A DNA stretch of 64,000 nucleotides. Origin: Spiroplasma ixodetis (GTDB lineage Bacteria > Bacillota_I > Bacilli_A > Mycoplasmatales > VBWQ01). Below the pieces are notes generated by a model, which saw only the letters and a list, made by a program, of their open reading frames with translations, was not told where the DNA came from and made no database searches. The DNA is taken from contig NZ_AP026933.1 in assembly GCF_027923845.1 (NCBI RefSeq), forward strand, positions 372,001 to 436,000, read 5' to 3'. Of the stretch, positions 7,222-53,295 are shown piece by piece; the first letter of the stretch is position 1, and each line of letters starts with the position of its first letter. The translations under genes were made by a program, and so were the position numbers.

Positions 7222-8084
7222 GAACCTGTTTAGAATCTTTTTAATAAAATTGAAATAAAGGACAGAACAACCATTTGTAAACTAGTATTTAGTTTTCTTT
7301 CACAATTTTTTCATAATCTTCTGCATTTTTCTAATCATGCAAAGCTTCGTTCTACAACTCATCTTTTTGGTAGTACTACAAAAGAATGTAATTCATTACG
7401 TTTTACAACTTCAACATTTGCATTTATGATTGTTTTGATTGCAGAAGCAAATTTTTCACCAGTATAGCCAGCATCTACTATTATTTTTTGAACTGTAGAA
7501 AGATTTTCTTTTTCACTTTTAATCATTATGATAGCACTATTACGATCTGTTTTTTCTGCTGTAGTTATGTAAATTGCATGTGGTAAACCTTGCGTATCAA
7601 CTGCAATATGACGTTTTATTCCTGAAATCTTTTTACCAGCATCATAACCTTTATTTTCAGTAGTATCTGTATTTTTAACACTTTGCAAATCAATTATACA
7701 AAAACTAGTTTTTTCTTTTCGATGATTCTTAATACGAATCTTTTTAACTAATTTTTTTAAAATTAATTGCAATACACTAGGTTCTTTATCATTGTTTTTA
7801 CTTCAAATTTGGAAATAATAATATACAGTTTGTCATTTTGGAAAATTTTTTGGTAACATTCTTCATTGACAACCACTTTTTAATACATATAAAACTGCAC
7901 AAAACACTTCATATAAATCTAAATTTCTTGGTTTTGTTTTCTTTTTGCTGTTTTCTAAAGTTGATTTTATGTTCTCAAATTGTTCTTTAGTAACATGACT
8001 TGGATAATTTTTATGCATATATACCTCTTATTTTAAAATATATAGTAATTTTACCTTATTTTCTAAAAGATTCTAAACAGGTTC
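7222..8084 (-). mobile_element. IS5-family element, 863 bp, copy 1
   Basis: Bounded by perfect inverted repeats GAACCTGTTTAGAATCTTTT and a TAA duplication. It is the innermost layer of the ftsK stack. It carries one transposase gene spanning nearly the whole element. Confidence 0.94.
7230..8018 (-). CDS. IS5-family transposase (copy 1)
   Basis: A 262-residue DDE transposase of the IS5 family (IS427-like, TNA-type target). N-terminal DUF4096-like region has LKSGCQWRMLPKNFPKWQTVYYYF; catalytic residues lie in CIIDxQSVK (D), IIVDAGYTGE (D) and VVERSFAWLEKCRR (E). This copy has Leu where the other intact copies have Ser directly after the first catalytic Asp (IIDLQS instead of IIDSQS). The stop codon overlaps the right inverted repeat. 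Five TGA codons are Trp. Confidence 0.9.
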
Positions 8085-10086
8085 TAAAACAGAACATCAA
8101 TTATGCATTGTTCATCAAATTAGAAATAGTTTAAAATATGTTTCATACAAACATCGAAAAGGTCTAGTTGCAGATTTAAAACCAATTTATAGTGCATGTA
8201 GTGAAGAACAAGCAATGCAAGCTTTAGAATCGTTTGAAAGTAAATGAAATAAACAATATCCTCAAATTACTAAATCTTGATATAAAAATTGAGATAATTT
8301 AATGGTTTTTATTAGTTATCCAGTAGAAATCAAAAGAGTGATTTATACTACAAATGCTATTGAATCTGTTAATAGTCAATTACGAAAAATCATCAGAAAT
8401 AAAAAAGTTTTTCCTAATGATATGGCAGTTTTCAAAATATTTTACTTGGCAATTGAAAATATAACAAAAAAATGAACATTGCCTATTCAAAATTGAAATA
8501 CAGCAATTGCTCATTTTATGATAAAATTTGAAGACAGAATTAATCTAAATTAGTAACTTTGTAAAACAAAGATACACAGATTATTAAAAAGCCTCGATGT
8601 TTTGCAACTTTGATATGTGTTTTAAATGTTCTTCTTATATGTTTTCAAACTGATTCAATTTGGTTGGTATTTACACCAATTTTTGAAACATAGCCATCTT
8701 GATGGTTAACTGTTTCATGCTTAGTGAAAACTGATTTAAAATCGCAATATCCTTTTCAAGAATCAGTATATACAAGACATTTTGAAGAAATGTGGTTTTT
8801 TGCAAACTGCAAAAGATTTTTACTCTTTGCGTTTTTCAATACTTTCACAATTAAATTATTGGTTGTTTTTTGATAAATGCCAACAATCAAGGTTTTATTC
8901 ACCAAGGATCTTCCTTGTTTTTTAAAACCCATATGTGAAAGATACATTTCATCAATTTGCACTGTACCTTCAACAATAAATTGAGGTTTTTGTTTTGCAA
9001 TACGTGTTCTGATTTTATGAGTCATTCTTCAAGCAGTTTTCAAAGTCACTCCCAATTCTTTTGCAATATCTGTTGATGGAATTCCATGTTTGGTGTTTAT
9101 TCATCTAAAGATAAGATAAAACCAAGATGTTAAAGATGTTTGTGACCTTGAAAATATGGTGCCTGTGAGAATGCTAAATGTTTGATTACATTTTAAACAT
9201 CTCATTCTTTTTAAATCAGAAGTATTCAAATTAAAATTAAAACACCTAATACATTTGTTTTCTTTCAAATTTGCTATATATGCAAGACATTGCTGTTCAG
9301 TTTGAAAAGCATTGTTGAATTCATTCAGTTTCATTATTCCCTCCACAAGTACATGTGGGGAGAAGTCCGTATTATTTTTAATTACGCCAGTAATTACATC
9401 TACTGATGGTCTTTGTGTTGCTATTACTAAATGAATTCCTGCCGCTCGACCCATTTGTGTAATTCGCATGATTCCTTCTTCAACTTGCTTGCTTGCTTGT
9501 ACCATTAAATCTGCTAATTCATCAATAACAATAATATAATAAGGTAATTTATCAATTTCTTGACTTATTTTTTTATTATAACTTTCAATATCACGATTTC
9601 CATTTTTTGCAAATAGTTGGTATCGACGCATCATTTCTAAAATTACTACTTGTAATGCTGCTGGTGTTTTGTTTGCTTCATTAATTACTGGAATAATTAA
9701 ATGTGGGATATCATTATAAATTGCTAATTCTACTCATTTAGGATCGATTAATATTAGTTTTATTTCATGAGGTTTGTATTGTAAGAGCAAAGAAATTAGT
9801 AAATCATTAATAAAAACGGATTTTCCTGAACCAGTATTACCAGCAATTAATAAGTGGGGCATTTCTTTAATGGATGCAACATGTAATCACCAGTAGTATT
9901 TCTACCAATACTAATTAATAATTTTTTATTTTTATATTTTTCGCTTATATTTTCAAATTGTTCTTGCATATTAATTGGAACAATATTTTTATTACTAACT
10001 TCAATTCCAATCATTGATTTACCAGCTATTGGTGCTTCGATTCTAATATTATTATTTGCTAAAACTAGTTTTAGTTCTTCTTCTAA

Positions 10087-21950: not shown

Positions 21951-23028
21951 GCTGAATTATACTTGTAAGTGCAAGTAAATAAAATTGCAAAAAATTCTCA
22001 TATAAAAATTTCATAATGCTAAATTTAGTTTAGAAAAAGTAAGGAGTTTTTATATGAGTTATAAACATATTGGGATAGATGAAAGAATTTATATTGAGAA
22101 TCAATTGAAATTTAAAGTTAAAATTAGTGAAATAGCTAAAAATCTTAATCGAAGTATTAGTACTATTATTCGAGAAGTTAATAGAAATAAAGATAATGAT
22201 CATTATTTTTCATTAATTGCACAAAATAAAGCTGTAAATAGAAAAAAATCACATATTATTTTTCATAAGTTTAAATATAAAGATTTAGTCAAATATATAC
22301 AACAAAAACTATTATTGGGCTGATCACCTGAACAAATTTATGGCAGAATTAAAAATTTTCATAAACAATGAGCTATCAGCTTTAAAACAATTTACAATTG
22401 AATTTATTCTGGATTATTTGATAAAGTTACTAGTAAAAATTTAAGAAGAAAAGGTAAAAAACGAAGATCTCAAGAAAATTGTGGTAAATTTAATGGTAAA
22501 TCAATTAAAGAACGAGATAATAATGTTAATGATCGCATAACTCTTGGTCATTGAGAAGGAGATACTATAGTATCATCAAGAGGTAAAAGTAAATCATGTT
22601 TAATAACTTTAGTTGAAAGAGTATCACGATTTACTTTAGCAATGTTAGTTAAAAACAAAACTACTAAAGTTATTAATAAAAATATCATTCATTATTTATC
22701 AATTCTTCCTAAAAATATTGTTAAAACTATTACTTTTGATCGTGGTAAAGAATTTGCAAATTGACAACAACTTGAAAAAAAGTTAGATGTGAAAATTTAT
22801 TTTGCAAATCCATATTCACCTTGACAAAGAGGTACTAATGAAAATACTAATGGTTTAATTAGAGAAAAATTTCCTAAAAAATTTATTTTTTCAAAAACTA
22901 ATAAAAATGAAGTTCATAAATTTATATTGTCTTTAAACCAAAGACCCAGAAAAATACTAAATTATCTTTCACCAATCGAATATTTGAATAGAAAAATAAT
23001 TTAGTTGCACTTACCTTTACAATTTTGC
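21951..23028 (+). mobile_element. IS30-family element, complete
   Basis: 1078 bp with 30-bp imperfect inverted repeats beginning GCTGAATTATAC (left) and GCAAAATTGTAA (right) and sharing GTAAGTGCAA. The bases on either side (AGT and AAT) do not form a duplication, so at least one flank has been exchanged by recombination. Confidence 0.88.
22054..23004 (+). CDS. IS30-family transposase
   Basis: A 316-residue DDE transposase. The N-terminal helix-turn-helix reads KISEIAKNLNRSISTIIREV (HTH_38 type). The core has GHWEGDTIV (D), ITFDRGKEFANW (D) and RGTNENTNGLIREKFPK (E), all standard for IS30. The RBS AAGGAG lies upstream of ATG. Seven or more TGA codons are Trp. The frame is intact. Confidence 0.93.
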
Positions 23029-28298: not shown

Positions 28299-28819
28299 TT
28301 AAAATATTTTCTGTAGTATTCTTGAATTTTAACAAAAGAAGTGGAGAAATAAAATGTCTTTAGAAGTAGTACCAAATTTAAAAGAAATACTTATAAATTC
28401 AACTATACAAAATGTTAAAAGTAATATAATAAAGTTAAAAGAATTTTTTAGTACTTCTTCTAATATACAATACTTAGAATATTGATTTATTTTTTTTGAA
28501 AAAGATTTTTTTAAAAAAAATTTAAAAATAATGGAAAAACAGTATCAATGAATGCAAAAATTTTTAGTGAAAGTAAAAGATGAAGTAATTAATGATGAAA
28601 GAAAAGAACTTAAATTTCTTTCTTTTAAGTTTGAAAAAGAAAATTTTTTCTCATGAGATAAAGAACTAGAGTTTGAATTACTTGAATTTACTTTAATATG
28701 AGAGGAACAAAAACAGAAGGAAAAGGATAAACTCATTGATAAAATTACAGCATTAAAAATAGAATTAAATTGTAAATTAAGTAGTAAAAAATGAGAATTG
28801 AAAGAGAAATTATATAAAA

Positions 28820-29758
28820 CGGACTTCTCCCCACATGTACTTGTGGAGGGAATAATGAAACTGAATGAATTCAACAATGCTTTTCAAACTGAACAGCAAT
28901 GTCTTGCATATATAGCAAATTTGAAAGAAAACAAATGTATTAGGTGTTTTAATTTTAATTTGAATACTTCTGATTTAAAAAGAATGAGATGTTTAAAATG
29001 TAATCAAACATTTAGCATTCTCACAGGCACCATATTTTCAAGGTCACAAACATCTTTAACATCTTGGTTTTATCTTATCTTTAGATGAATAAACACCAAA
29101 CATGGAATTCCATCAACAGATATTGCAAAAGAATTGGGAGTGACTTTGAAAACTGCTTGAAGAATGACTCATAAAATCAGAACACGTATTGCAAAACAAA
29201 AACCTCAATTTATTGTTGAAGGTACAGTGCAAATTGATGAAATGTATCTTTCACATATGGGTTTTAAAAAACAAGGAAGATCCTTGGTGAATAAAACCTT
29301 GATTGTTGGCATTTATCAAAAAACAACCAATAATTTAATTGTGAAAGTATTGAAAAACGCAAAGAGTAAAAATCTTTTGCAGTTTGCAAAAAACCACATT
29401 TCTTCAAAATGTCTTGTATATACTGATTCTTGAAAAGGATATTGCGATTTTAAATCAGTTTTCACTAAGCATGAAACAGTTAACCATCAAGATGGCTATG
29501 TTTCAAAAATTGGTGTAAATACCAACCAAATTGAATCAGTTTGAAAACATATAAGAAGAACATTTAAAACACATATCAAAGTTGCAAAACATCATGTTCA
29601 TTTATATGCTAAAGAAGCTGCATATAAATTCAACAAGATACCTAGTTTTGAAACTGTAATTCTATGTTTGATTTAAAAATGTGGGGAGAAGTCCGTAGAT
29701 AGGCTTTTCTCAGCATTTATGTGATAAAATTAAAATAGTACATAAAGGGAGAAAAGCC
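28820..29758 (+). mobile_element. IS1595-family element, subtype 1, complete
   Basis: 939 bp, flanked by ATATAAAA on both sides. It serves as the reference for element ends: left CGGACTTCTCCCCACATG, right hairpin tip ending AGAAAAGCC. Confidence 0.95.
28855..29676 (+). CDS. IS1595-family transposase, subtype 1
   Basis: A 273-residue protein. Zinc ribbon [21 protein letters not shown], then HTH, then DDE motifs VQIDEMYLSHMGF, CLVYTDSWKGYCDF and NTNQIESVWKHIRR. ATG chosen because GGAGGG lies 4 bases before it. TGA is Trp at four positions. The frame is intact. Confidence 0.93.
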
Positions 29759-30261
29759 ATATAAAATTAATAATCAACAAGAAATTATTTTAAATTTTCA
29801 TAATAATAGTCTTAAAAAATTAGAAGTTTTTCAAAAACAAAAAACAAGTAAGATTTTTAAATTTAAAAGTAAATTAGTTAAGTTTTTAACTTTTGGTTAT
29901 TATAATTTTGAAATAAGATTAGTTAATAGAATAGAATGTGAAAAAGTTGTTTTAAATAATCAAAAAGAGCAACTTTATAAAATTGGATTAAAAATTTGTA
30001 ATATCAAAAAAAGTTTGAATAAAGTTGAAATAAAAATTAGAAAAAAAGACAAAGACTTAATTTATTTAAAGAAAATATTGTCTCTCTTGTTAAGGAAATA
30101 AATTCAATTAATGTACAAAATATTGAAATTTCAACAAACAATAGATTAATAACACAATTATAGTTATTCTTTTTATTTATTTGTAATCTAAAATTGGAGA
30201 AAATATATCCATTTATATGATAAAATCTTACTTATATATAGACATGAAAGGATTTGGCACT

Positions 30262-48263: not shown

Positions 48264-48542
48264 ATGACCAATATTAACTCATATACCGACGAATTTAAAA
48301 AGCAAATAGTAGCTTTATATCAAAGTGGTAAGTCAGTGTCTTGTCTTGCTAAAGAATATAATGTTACAAGAGCAACTACTTATAAATGAATTAAACAATT
48401 TACTAATTCAGGTAGTTTTAAAATTAAAAATAATCTTTCAGATTTAGAAAAACAATTAATTCAAGCAAATAAAGAATTAAAACAGTTATGAATGGAAAAT
48501 GATATTTTAAAGCAAGCAGCACTAATAATAGGCAGAAAATAG
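48264..48542 (+). CDS. IS3-family OrfA (type E)
   Basis: 92 residues. Helix-turn-helix SVSCLAKEYNVTRATTYKWI followed by a leucine-zipper-like tail LEKQLIQANKELKQLWMEND typical of IS3 OrfA. AAAGGAA lies before ATG. It ends GRK just past an AGAAAAT string, where a -1 shift would lead straight into OrfB. Confidence 0.9.
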
Positions 48543-49423
48543 AAATTATTACTAAAAATAAAGTTAAATATAAAATTCGCACAATGTGTCGTTTTTTAAA
48601 ACTCTCTAAATCAACATATTATTTTAATTTAAAGAAAAAAGAAAAAATTCAAAATAATATTTATGATGAAGCTGTTATTAGTGCTTTTAAAGAAAATAAA
48701 GAAGTTTATGGTACTAGAAGATTAAAAGTCATACTAGCAAACCAAGAAATTTATTTATCACGCAGAAAAATTAAAAAAATTATGAATAAGCATAATTTAA
48801 TATCAAAATACACTAAATTATCATTCAAAAATCATCATAATAAAGTCAATGATAGTCAAATTACCAATCTTGTTAATAGAGACTTTAATAATAGAATTAA
48901 AAATGAAGTTATTGTCAGTGATTTAACTTATGTTCAAGTTAATGGTAAATGAAACTATATTTGCCTATTAGTAGACCTGTACAACCGCGAAATTATTGGA
49001 CATAGTGTTGGAGTTAAAAAAGATGCATCATTAGTACATCAAGCATTTATGCACTCAAATCGCTGTTTAAAAGATATTCAAATATTTCATAGCGATCGCG
49101 GTAATGAATTCAATAATAAAACTATTGATAAACTTTTATTAGCATTCAATATTACCCGTTCTTTAAGCAAAAAAGGATGTCCTTATGACAATGCTGTTGC
49201 TGAAGCAACTTTTAAAACTTTCAAAACAGAGTTTATTAATGATAAAAATTTTACATCATTAATCCAATTAAAATTAGAATTATTTGATTACATAAATTGA
49301 TATAACAACATAAGAATTCACAGCACTCTAAACTACCTAACTCCCGTTAAATATCATGAACAAATGTCTACCAAAAAATGAACTTGTCAAGAAAAGTGGA
49401 CAATAAAAGTAACCTTTTATTAA
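48539..49423 (+). CDS. IS3-family OrfB transposase (type E)
   Basis: Expressed probably as an OrfAB fusion by -1 frameshifting at 48537-48542; no good start codon or RBS precedes ATG 48584. HTH_21 region EVYGTRRLKVILANQ, integrase core with VIVSDLTYVQ (D), IFHSDRGNEFNNK (D) and DNAVAEATFKTFKTEF (E), and IRIHSTLNYLTPVKYHEQM at the end. The last residues after MSTKKWTCQ come from the inserted second IS3. Confidence 0.88.
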
Positions 49424-49621: not shown

Positions 49622-50996
49622 GAGGCTTTTTAATAATCTGTGTATCTTTGTTTTACAAAGTTACTAATTTAGATTAATTCTGTCTTCAAATTTTATCATA
49701 AAATGAGCAATTGCTGTATTTCAATTTTGAATAGGCAATGTTCATTTTTTTGTTATATTTTCAATTGCCAAGTAAAATATTTTGAAAACTGCCATATCAT
49801 TAGGAAAAACTTTTTTATTTCTGATGATTTTTCGTAATTGACTATTAACAGATTCAATAGCATTTGTAGTATAAATCACTCTTTTGATTTCTACTGGATA
49901 ACTAATAAAAACCATTAAATTATCTCAATTTTTATATCAAGATTTAGTAATTTGAGGATATTGTTTATTTCATTTACTTTCAAACGATTCTAAAGCTTGC
50001 ATTGCTTGTTCTTCACTACATGCACTATAAATTGGTTTTAAATCTGCAACTAGACCTTTTCGATGTTTGTATGAAACATATTTTAAACTATTTCTAATTT
50101 GATGAACAATGCATAATTGATGTTCTGTTTTAGGATAAACTGATTGTATTGCTTCTGACATGCCTGTTAAATTATCACTACAAGCAATAAGAATATCATT
50201 TAAGCCACGATTTTTCATTTCTGTGAAATTAGATAATCAAAACTTAGAACCTTCATTTTCACTAATTCATAATCCTAAAACATCTTTTTTGCCTTCTAAA
50301 TCAACTCCTAATGCTATATAAACTGATTTGTTAATAATCCGTTTATCTTGTCGTACTTTAACTACTATACAATCAAAATAAACAATAGGATAAATACTTT
50401 CTAATGGTCGATTTTGTCATGCTTTAACATCATCAATAACATCATCAGTAATTTGACTAATAACACTTTCACTAATATCAGCACCATGATATAACTCTTG
50501 CAACTGCATTCTAATGTCAGATAATGTCATTCCTTTTGCATACAAGGAAAGAACTTGTTGATCAAAACCATCAAATCTTCTTTGCCTTTTAGGAACTATT
50601 ACAGGAGTAAAATTACTATTGCGATCTCTTGGTACATCAATTTCAATTTTACCTTGTTGAGTTATTAATTTTTTTGAACTTGTACCATTACGAGCATTTT
50701 CAGTAGTACTATGTTGATTTTTTTCATATCCTAAATAATTTTGCATTTCAGAATTCAACATTTTTTCAACTAATCTTTTTGTTAATTCTTTATATAAACC
50801 GCCAGGTTTAAAAACTGTTGTTAAATCTTCAGTATTTTCTAGTAATAAATCTACTGCTTTTGATATTGGATCATTATTATTAAAGTTATCTTTTTTAGCC
50901 ATCTGTAACTCACTCTTTCTAGTCATTTAATTATATTTACTAGAATTAATTAAACATAGTTATTTTTGTAAGTTACACAGATTACTAAACATTTCC
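49622..50996 (-). mobile_element. IS256-family element, complete
   Basis: 1375 bp, flanked by GGAATTTG on both sides, inside the type F IS3 element. Used as the reference for IS256 ends. Confidence 0.94.
49664..50926 (-). CDS. IS256-family transposase, intact
   Basis: 420 residues from ATG 50926, or 412 from ATG 50902 (MAKKDNFNN), which has the better upstream purines. Catalytic D in VYFDCIVVKV, D in ACSDNLTGM and E in [10 protein letters not shown]; the conserved QLCIVHQIRNSLKYVS lies between. Only full-length IS256 transposase in the window. Confidence 0.92.
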
Positions 50997-51119: not shown

Positions 51120-52060
51120 GGCTTTTCTCCCTTTATGTACTATTTTTAAATCTTATCACATAAATGCTGAGAAAAGCCTATCTACGAACTTCTCCCCACA
51201 TTTTTAAATAAAACATAGCATTACAGTTTCAAAACTAGGTATGTTATTGAATTTATATGCAGCTTCTTTTGCATATAAATGAATATGATGTTTTGCAACT
51301 TTGATATGTGTTTTAAATGTTCTTCGTATATGTTTTCATACTGACTCAATTTGGTTGGTATTTACACCAGTTTTTGAAACATAGCCATCTTGATGGTTAA
51401 CTGTTTCATGCTTAGTGAAAACCGATTTCAAATCGCGATATCCTTTTCAAAAATCAGTATGTACAACACACTTTGAAGAAATGTGGTTTATTGCAAACTG
51501 CAAAAGATTTTTACTGTTTGCGTTTTTCAATACTTTCACAATCAGATTGTTGGTTGTTTTTTCATAAATACCAACAATCAAGGTTTTATTCAACAAGGAT
51601 CTTCCTTGTTTTTTAAACCCCATATGTGAAAGATACATTTCATCCATTTGCACTATGCCTTCAACAATGAATTGAGGTTTTTGTTTAGCAATGGCACTTC
51701 GGATTTTATGACCCATTCTTCAAGCTGTTTTCAAGGTCACTCCCAATTCTTTTGCAACATCAGTTGATGGAATTCCATGTTTGGTGTTTATTCATCTAAA
51801 AATGAGATAAAACCAAGATATTAAAGGTGTTTGTGACTTTGAAAATATAGTGCCCGTGAGAATACTGAATGTTTGATGACATTTCAAACATCTCATTCTT
51901 CTTAAATTAGAAGTATTCAAATTAAAACTAGAACACCTACTACATTTGATTTGTTTCAAACTTGCTATATATGCAAGACATTGTTTTTCAGTTTGAAAAG
52001 TATTATTGAACTCATTCAATTTCATTGTTTCCTCCACAAGTACATGTGGGGAGAAGTTCG
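51120..52060 (-). mobile_element. IS1595-family element, subtype 2, copy c
   Basis: 941 bp, flanked by AAATTTTA, inside the OrfB of the type F IS3 element. Confidence 0.93.
51204..52025 (-). CDS. IS1595-family transposase, subtype 2
   Basis: Intact 273-residue copy, identical in plan to that at 24262. Confidence 0.9.
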
Positions 52061-53295
52061 AAATTTTATAAGAAGGATTTGTATAGTGAAATCCTTGATC
52101 TGATTGTAAAATTCATGAAGTAGGTTTTTGAGCATTAACTCAAGCTTGGATAATGTTTTGGACAACAAATGTCATGTCTAAACTTGCACTTATTTTATAA
52201 TCTAATATTTCATTATTATGAAAATCTTTAACAATTGATAAATAATATGTTTTACCATTAGTTAATAAATAAGTTATATCAGTACCTAATTTTTCATTTA
52301 AATTAGTAGTTGAAAAATCACGTTTTAATAAATTATCATATCTTAAACTTCCTGATTTAGTTCTATAATCAAATTTTTTTATGCGAACCTTAGCTTTTAA
52401 ACTCATATTTTTCATATATCTATATACAATATGAAATTTTAATTTTAAATTATAAATTTTGTTAATTCATAAAGTTATCATTTTATAACCATAAATTTCT
52501 TGAAATTCATAAAAAATATTTTTAATTATATTAGCTAAAAATGTATCTCATTTATTAAATTCATTCATTCCATTCTTAATTCACTTATAATATCCTGATT
52601 TTGAAACATTTAATAATCAACATAAATAACTAATCTGATATTTTTTCTTCAATGAGAAAATCACAAAATATTTCTTCTTTTTTGTCGATTTTTCTAAATA
52701 CTTTTTATATCGTTCATTGCCTCAATATATTCAATTAATTCTTGTTTTGTCATTTCATTAAAATTTAAAGATTTGGGTCGACCTGTTCTTTTGGTTTTTT
52801 TAGCACGAATTCCATTGCCATATTCTAAACCTTTTTCACCTAATAATTTATATGCTTTAATTCATTCTTTTATTGATGATCGACCAATACCATACTCTAA
52901 TGCGGTTTTATCAATTGTTTTAATTTTACTTATTTTTATTATTTTTAACTTTTCTTCTTTTGATAGTCATTTAGCCATAAAAAAATGAACACCTTCCTTA
53001 AAGTATTTTTAACACAAAGGTTACAATTCTGTGTCTACTTTATTCTAGATGTTCAAAATAGTCCTAAAAAGGGTTGCCATTCCATGGTAAGATTTATAAA
53101 ACCGATGGAATTAGTGGTCAATTTAGTATTTTTGAGCAAAGATCAGATGCTAATCAGATAAGTAGTTTAGTAGTTGATAATGATAATATTGTTTATGCTG
53201 GTTCTTGAATTGGCAATGTATATAAAATTAAAAATAGAACGTATAATGCAATTTTAGAAACGAATCCAAATCATGAGATTAAACGTTTACTCTTA

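Follow-up and report, generated by a model that had tools for sequence, protein, structure and literature searches.

Which of two sequences forms the right end of an insertion sequence of Spiroplasma ixodetis, and why does the element carry both? In the window, the whole 64,000-nucleotide stretch of DNA analysed here, a complete type A copy of the element occupies positions 28820–29758 (+ strand). It is 939 bp long and is bounded by the two copies of a target-site duplication (TSD), ATATAAAA, at 28812–28819 on the left and 29759–29766 on the right. A perfect inverted match to the left tip at 28820, CGGACTTCTCCCCACA, lies inside the right end, at 29680–29695, as the initial annotation had reported. 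Beyond this inner repeat lies a palindrome, predicted to form a hairpin, whose end GAGAAAAGCC directly abuts the duplication ATATAAAA.

The host genome is 2.14 Mb in size, low in G+C, and uses TGA as a tryptophan codon. Copies were counted in 1.656 Mb of it, read in stretches, and 218 of those in the sampled sequence are full-length. The transposase gene (28855–29676, + strand) encodes 273 aa under genetic code 4. The protein matches DDE_Tnp_IS1595 (Pfam PF12762; 2.4e-27, 96.2 bits, cut-off 27) and NCBIfam NF033547 (4.5e-43, 147.6 bits, cut-off 75); IS1595 models alone match, and the transposase is not of the IS256 type. Members of the IS1595 family have an N-terminal zinc-finger domain, which is missing in the IS1016 subgroup. 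CxxC pairs at residues 28/31 and 46/49 are invariant in alignment A1; no Pfam zinc-finger match was found at 1e-3. Judged by its transposase, the length of its duplication and its end repeats, the element is a member of the IS1595 family. Copy number, near-identity of copies and TSDs imply, as far as sequence can tell, recent activity at most. We tentatively describe it as an IS1595-family insertion sequence that is, or until recently was, active and whose right end is compound.

The comparison between lineages drew on types A, B and C, the type G004-A from the genome of another Spiroplasma species (G004), and a degenerate copy, L031, from Spiroplasma sp. AdecLV25b. No relatives were found in viral contigs or phage records, plasmid records yielded only partial S. 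ixodetis matches at the DNA level, and an order-wide search turned up, in other mollicutes, nothing closer than distant transposases; the two of these that were inspected are not flanked by end repeats. A relative without the palindrome, representing the ancestral state, was not found among the lineages searched.

Several IS families saturate the genome. A second very abundant repeat, ACCTCTTATTTTAAAATATATAG ... AAAAGATTCTAAACAGGTTC, occurs far more than 100 times in the sequence sampled, including window positions 8023, 10888, 12345, 21457, 47822, 54097, 56146 and 61204; it adjoins a 262-aa ORF that resembles the transposase of another IS family. Judged by eye, the ORFs at window positions 22054–23004, 48488–49423 and 49664–50926 resemble transposases of further IS families (IS30-, IS3- and IS256-like). 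The IS1595 element is itself a target of recurrent insertion, at element positions 512–520 and 907–914. The first site, TAATTTAA, lies in the gene and carries IS1595 copies in three other elements; the second, AAAATTAA, forms the A/T core of the palindrome and is broken in two copies.

The TSDs show which tip is used. An exact 8-bp TSD lies outside the hairpin in 201 of the 218 full-length copies in the 1.656 Mb read; in none of the 218 does a TSD adjoin the inner repeat, an arrangement under which the hairpin would not be required. The remaining full copies have unmatched flanks, as expected from recombination between copies. In genome G004, the TSD lies outside the hairpin in all seven type-A-like copies and in three of the four type-C copies, and the degenerate L031 copy has it in the same place. 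The duplications are A/T-rich, and the insertion targets share nothing beyond being A/T-rich. The transposition that TSDs record joins the left tip to the outer tip; the hairpin belongs to the mobile unit, whose real tip it holds, as had been proposed for this locus.

The terminal palindrome occupies 29702–29758 and measures 57 bp (59 bp in type B), shorter than the roughly 64 bp first ascribed to it; its predicted RNA fold has a z-score of −5.6 against shuffles. Arm 1 (29702–29711, + strand) carries a tip that faces inwards, and arm 2 (29737–29758, − strand), GGCTTTTCTCCCTTTATGTACT, is the right terminal repeat. The left terminal repeat (28820–28841, + strand) is bipartite, with the blocks TTCTCCC (bases 6–12) and ATGTACT (bases 16–22). 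When left CGGACTTCTCCCCACATGTACT and right GGCTTTTCTCCCTTTATGTACT are compared without gaps from the cut inwards, 15 of 22 bases are equal. Only an imperfect match over the outermost 12 bases had been noted before; over 22 bases the match is bipartite. In nearly all of eight sequences from four lineages the two ends agree at bases 2, 6–12 and 16–22, and bases 3, 4, 13, 14 and 15 are never equal; the variable bases 8 and 10 change in step at the left and outer tips. Such terminal inverted repeats stand at the tips in all lineages, and the outer tip is a genuine right terminal repeat.

The hairpin is found in lineages with protein identities of 87%, about 70% and 47%. Between types A and C, the hairpin with its adjacent spacer keeps 54 of 63 positions, the gene 598 of 780 and the inner repeat 13 of 19. 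Hairpin and spacer are therefore the best-conserved DNA of the element, being ancient and constrained rather than a recent gain. The idea that the element had gained a new end copying its own tip holds in so far as more than one tip-like sequence is present on the right. It fails where it makes the outer end a new, poor copy: the same two-block motif stands equally far from the cut as at the left end, in every lineage. At base 8 the two arms of the palindrome change together, and elsewhere they hardly vary; arm 1 has its block 2 displaced by 2 bp. In one copy (G000:C1 811867) the arms are now nearly identical, suggesting quasi-palindrome correction.

Two further roles for the hairpin were considered and rejected. 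An outward promoter in the loop has a 9/12 match at 29707, but six promoter-like sites were found against 7.1 expected by chance. As for the hairpin as an independent mini-transposon, solo hairpins lack a TSD, and in three of them the left flank matches that of a full copy located at a homologous or repeated site. That the hairpin serves mainly as a transcription terminator or shield against read-through, also suggested for this locus, is very improbable: its stem is strong (fold z −5.6) and at least some copies lie inside genes, but no T-run follows the stem on either strand, a terminator scan does not list it (the scan's loop limit of 3–8 excludes this hairpin), and the transposition tip contained in the palindrome suffices to explain its conservation.

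The inner repeat (29679–29695, − strand) is a 17-bp perfect inverted copy of the left tip, with its outer edge 63 bp from the right end. Bases 1, 3, 5, 8, 10, 12 and 14 of the left tip differ between lineages, and the inner repeat matches each change: both members have changed in seven of the 17 pairs, and in no pair has just one member changed. As a register control, the 35-pair structure that includes the palindrome was slid, and pairing fell from 97% to 42–60%. Bases 3, 5 and 14 are not common to the working outer end, which thus does not need them. Since the left tip and inner repeat track each other, and the arms likewise, {left, inner} and {arm 1, arm 2} behave like two matched end pairs. 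On these comparisons the inner repeat is a second copy, specific to the left tip. In types A and B it lacks block 2 (ATGTACT); with block 2 of arm 1 shifted, neither is a complete end. A/B mosaics, in which the left and inner repeats do not match, occur among copies with TSDs (about ten in one direction and three in the opposite one). A mismatch at base 15 is common to about ten copies. A perfect match is therefore not strictly needed for spread, unless it is provided in trans or conversion is involved.

Three parts thus follow one another between the gene and the outer tip: the inner repeat as a second left tip, a spacer that is exactly 6 bp long, and arm 1, which faces inwards and makes the palindrome with the outer tip. 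The spacer, TAGATA at 29696–29701, is 6 bp long in all lineages, reading TAGATA in types A and B and in G004-A, TAGGTA in type C and TGGGTA in L031; the TAGATA layout occurs on about 310 right ends genome-wide. The distance from the inner repeat to the outer tip varies from 62 to 65 bp, with the spacer constant at 6. We infer that an inner repeat placed exactly 6 bp from the hairpin reproduces the geometry of a transposon-end junction.

Rare REARRANGEMENTS break exactly at the junction bases. Five fragments, four of them independent, start at the first base of arm 1 (element position 883), at 403958, 873431, 938714 and 700139, the last being a duplicate of 1242311. Four of 42 right-hand fragments at one given position would have P of about 2e-7 under uniform breaks. 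Three of the four have on their left exactly the DNA that borders a full copy located at a homologous or repeated site, the flanks being CACCAGTTTATGAATTTTATTA, ACCTCTTATTTTAAAATA and CCAATAATTTAA followed by CGR; the fourth, 938714, differs in having 75 bp of foreign DNA joined to arm 1. As the three flanks equal those outside full copies, the cut was precise at both a left tip and the junction, and the three fragments look like precise deletions from just outside a left tip to the base 6 bp past an inner repeat. Exact ends at the inner tip were found at five further independent loci, none with a TSD, and such ends were therefore rejected as normal insertions. One is a near full-length copy (763124–763999); the other four are 38-bp perfect or near-perfect palindromes made of two left/inner tips (G000:C1 1177101, 1449868, 1505224 and 1321132, the second also near 1465112 and 1481597). 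Because the precise-break loci lack the 8-bp TSD, host recombination may be part of their origin. In two present-day head-to-tail tandems (G000:C1 759887 and 1720789) the members are separated by 6 bp that read TATCTA, which is TAGATA in reverse complement and not flanking DNA. Body inversion between the left tip and inner repeat was seen in none of the 218 full copies; three hits to the inversion pattern come from the two tandems and from the copy that ends at the inner tip, leaving no case that holds.

The reading that we prefer, though at somewhat less than even confidence, is that the right end is a locked end–6 bp–end junction in which the inner repeat is still recognised by the transposase. 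One IS end would have become joined 6 bp outside another, and the arrangement would then have been locked into the element. The likeliest origin would be a head-to-tail tandem in which the second element was reduced to nothing but its ends, seen now as the palindrome and supplying the working right end; the right end is probably a fossil tandem. Continued recognition of the inner repeat by the transposase, whether as an end or as an accessory site, would make the inner repeat follow the left tip whenever the tip changes, and occasional cutting of the junction would yield the precise deletions observed. The TSD pattern, the two-block tips, the paired changes, the constant spacer, the exact breaks and the 6-bp tandems all support the junction reading. 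Against it stand the tandem spacer, TATCTA where a simple junction model would lead one to expect flanking DNA; the incompleteness as ends of both the inner repeat (in A and B) and arm 1; and the precise-break loci without TSD, for which host recombination may be a partial source. For the IS1595 family, the evidence of circle or junction chemistry is an inverse PCR of ISApl4 (PMC12561309). A 718-bp ISApl4 product was rejected as evidence for a 6-bp spacer, being a predicted amplicon size.

The inner repeat may instead have been kept for its RNA, pairing with the left-tip leader and so altering either masking of the ribosome-binding site or message stability; we regard this as unlikely, though as a real rival. 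The left tip doubles as the gene's leader, just 35 bp from the start codon, and the inner repeat begins three bases past the stop codon. In types A, B and C, the tip is predicted to pair with the ribosome-binding site GGAGG (28845–28849, + strand), in type A within a hairpin at 28825–28852 (+ strand; −12.4 kcal/mol, z −2.3) whose counterparts occur in B and C. Predicted folds of the full-length RNA pair the inner repeat with bases 1–17 (1–16 in G004-A) in each of the four types, and three of the bases with paired changes (3, 5 and 14) are not common to the outer transposition end. On the other hand, any inverted repeat of equal length folds in this way, mosaics with mismatched left and inner repeats have TSDs, and the predicted pairing probability of the ribosome-binding site is uneven (0.54 in A, 0.19 in B and 0.43 in G004-A versus 0.89 in C). 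As the effect differs by type, RNA control is a candidate rather than a demonstrated function. An RNA switch freeing the ribosome-binding site in junction transcripts was rejected: it performed well on 71-nt RNAs, less well with longer context and in a type-dependent manner. The leader has one further property. No stop codon interrupts the reading frame between the element's left edge and the gene (a ten-residue stretch followed by [G/E]-x-M, common to types A, B and C), and in-frame insertions would therefore give fusion proteins with the interrupted gene; such open frames lie at window positions 28354–29676, 51204–52664 and 8540–9862.

Alternatively, the inner repeat could be a relic end that now has no function, its identity with the left tip being maintained by gene conversion or by template switching between inverted repeats; this too seems improbable, without being far-fetched. 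Recombination and gene conversion between the 23-bp end repeats of a single IS of about 0.9 kb are documented for ISWpi1 of Wolbachia (PMC3004938), and template switching can produce matched double changes in a single event (PMC8794818). In the genome studied here, tip-to-tip recombinants are present and one copy (811867) shows homogenised arms. Yet the absence of body inversions among the 218 full copies speaks against conversion, as does a match that outlasts about 30% of protein divergence; the 6-bp spacing is kept as well, and uncoupled A/B mosaics persist uncorrected.

The element has partial counterparts elsewhere. In Sleeping Beauty (IR/DR), Tn7 and Mu, the transposase has several sites per end. 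The element resembles these systems in its asymmetric ends and in an inner site beside the cleaved outer one; unlike them, it has the second site on one end alone, as part of a proposed end–end junction. Within the IS1595 family, ISApl4 and the Persicobacter copies L151–L153 share the DDE_Tnp_IS1595 domain, the single gene, the 8-bp A/T-rich TSD and a similar length. ISApl4, however, has simple perfect 14-bp ends (PMC12561309), and the Persicobacter copies, as measured here, have a single imperfect end pair (18–19 of 24); neither shows an inner perfect repeat with a terminal palindrome. ISCth4, of the IS256 family, has bipartite ends, an 8-bp A/T-rich TSD and 6-bp end–end spacing (PMC7780238). 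Its transposase contacts bases 7–11 and 14–25 of the end, and its end–end junctions integrate best with a 6-bp A/T-rich spacer (PMC7780238); the two-block end layout of the IS1595 element is similar. ISCth4 differs in its transposase family and in that its junction is a transient circle intermediate, whereas the one proposed for the IS1595 element would be permanent. By analogy with the IS256 family, the 6-bp spacing within the element and in the tandems is consistent with copy-out/paste-in transposition. The IS1111 group also has inverted repeats away from the very tips (PMC11187229), but it uses a DEDD enzyme and RNA-guided targeting; the element described here has genuine terminal repeats and A/T-rich targets. 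No description of the compound right-end architecture was found in the papers searched.

A wider possibility, which we consider doubtful, is that an integrated IS permanently carries a reactive junction of the kind that exists in other IS just briefly, as an intermediate, with the transposase acting at two levels, insertion on the one hand and deletion or tandem formation on the other. The left and outer tips would then serve ordinary insertion, and the left or inner tip together with the junction would give precise deletions and tandems. If true, this two-level action would help to explain the hundreds of copies in the genome. To our knowledge, the transposition mechanism of the IS1595 family and of eukaryotic Merlin elements has been little studied. 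Natural variants of each sub-part of the right end are ready substrates for testing copy-out/paste-in in the IS1595 family; the same variants could show what the ends require and whether the second site controls which end is cut. The element also offers a clean case in which matched changes in inverted repeats may come from selection for pairing, from protein recognition or from gene conversion.
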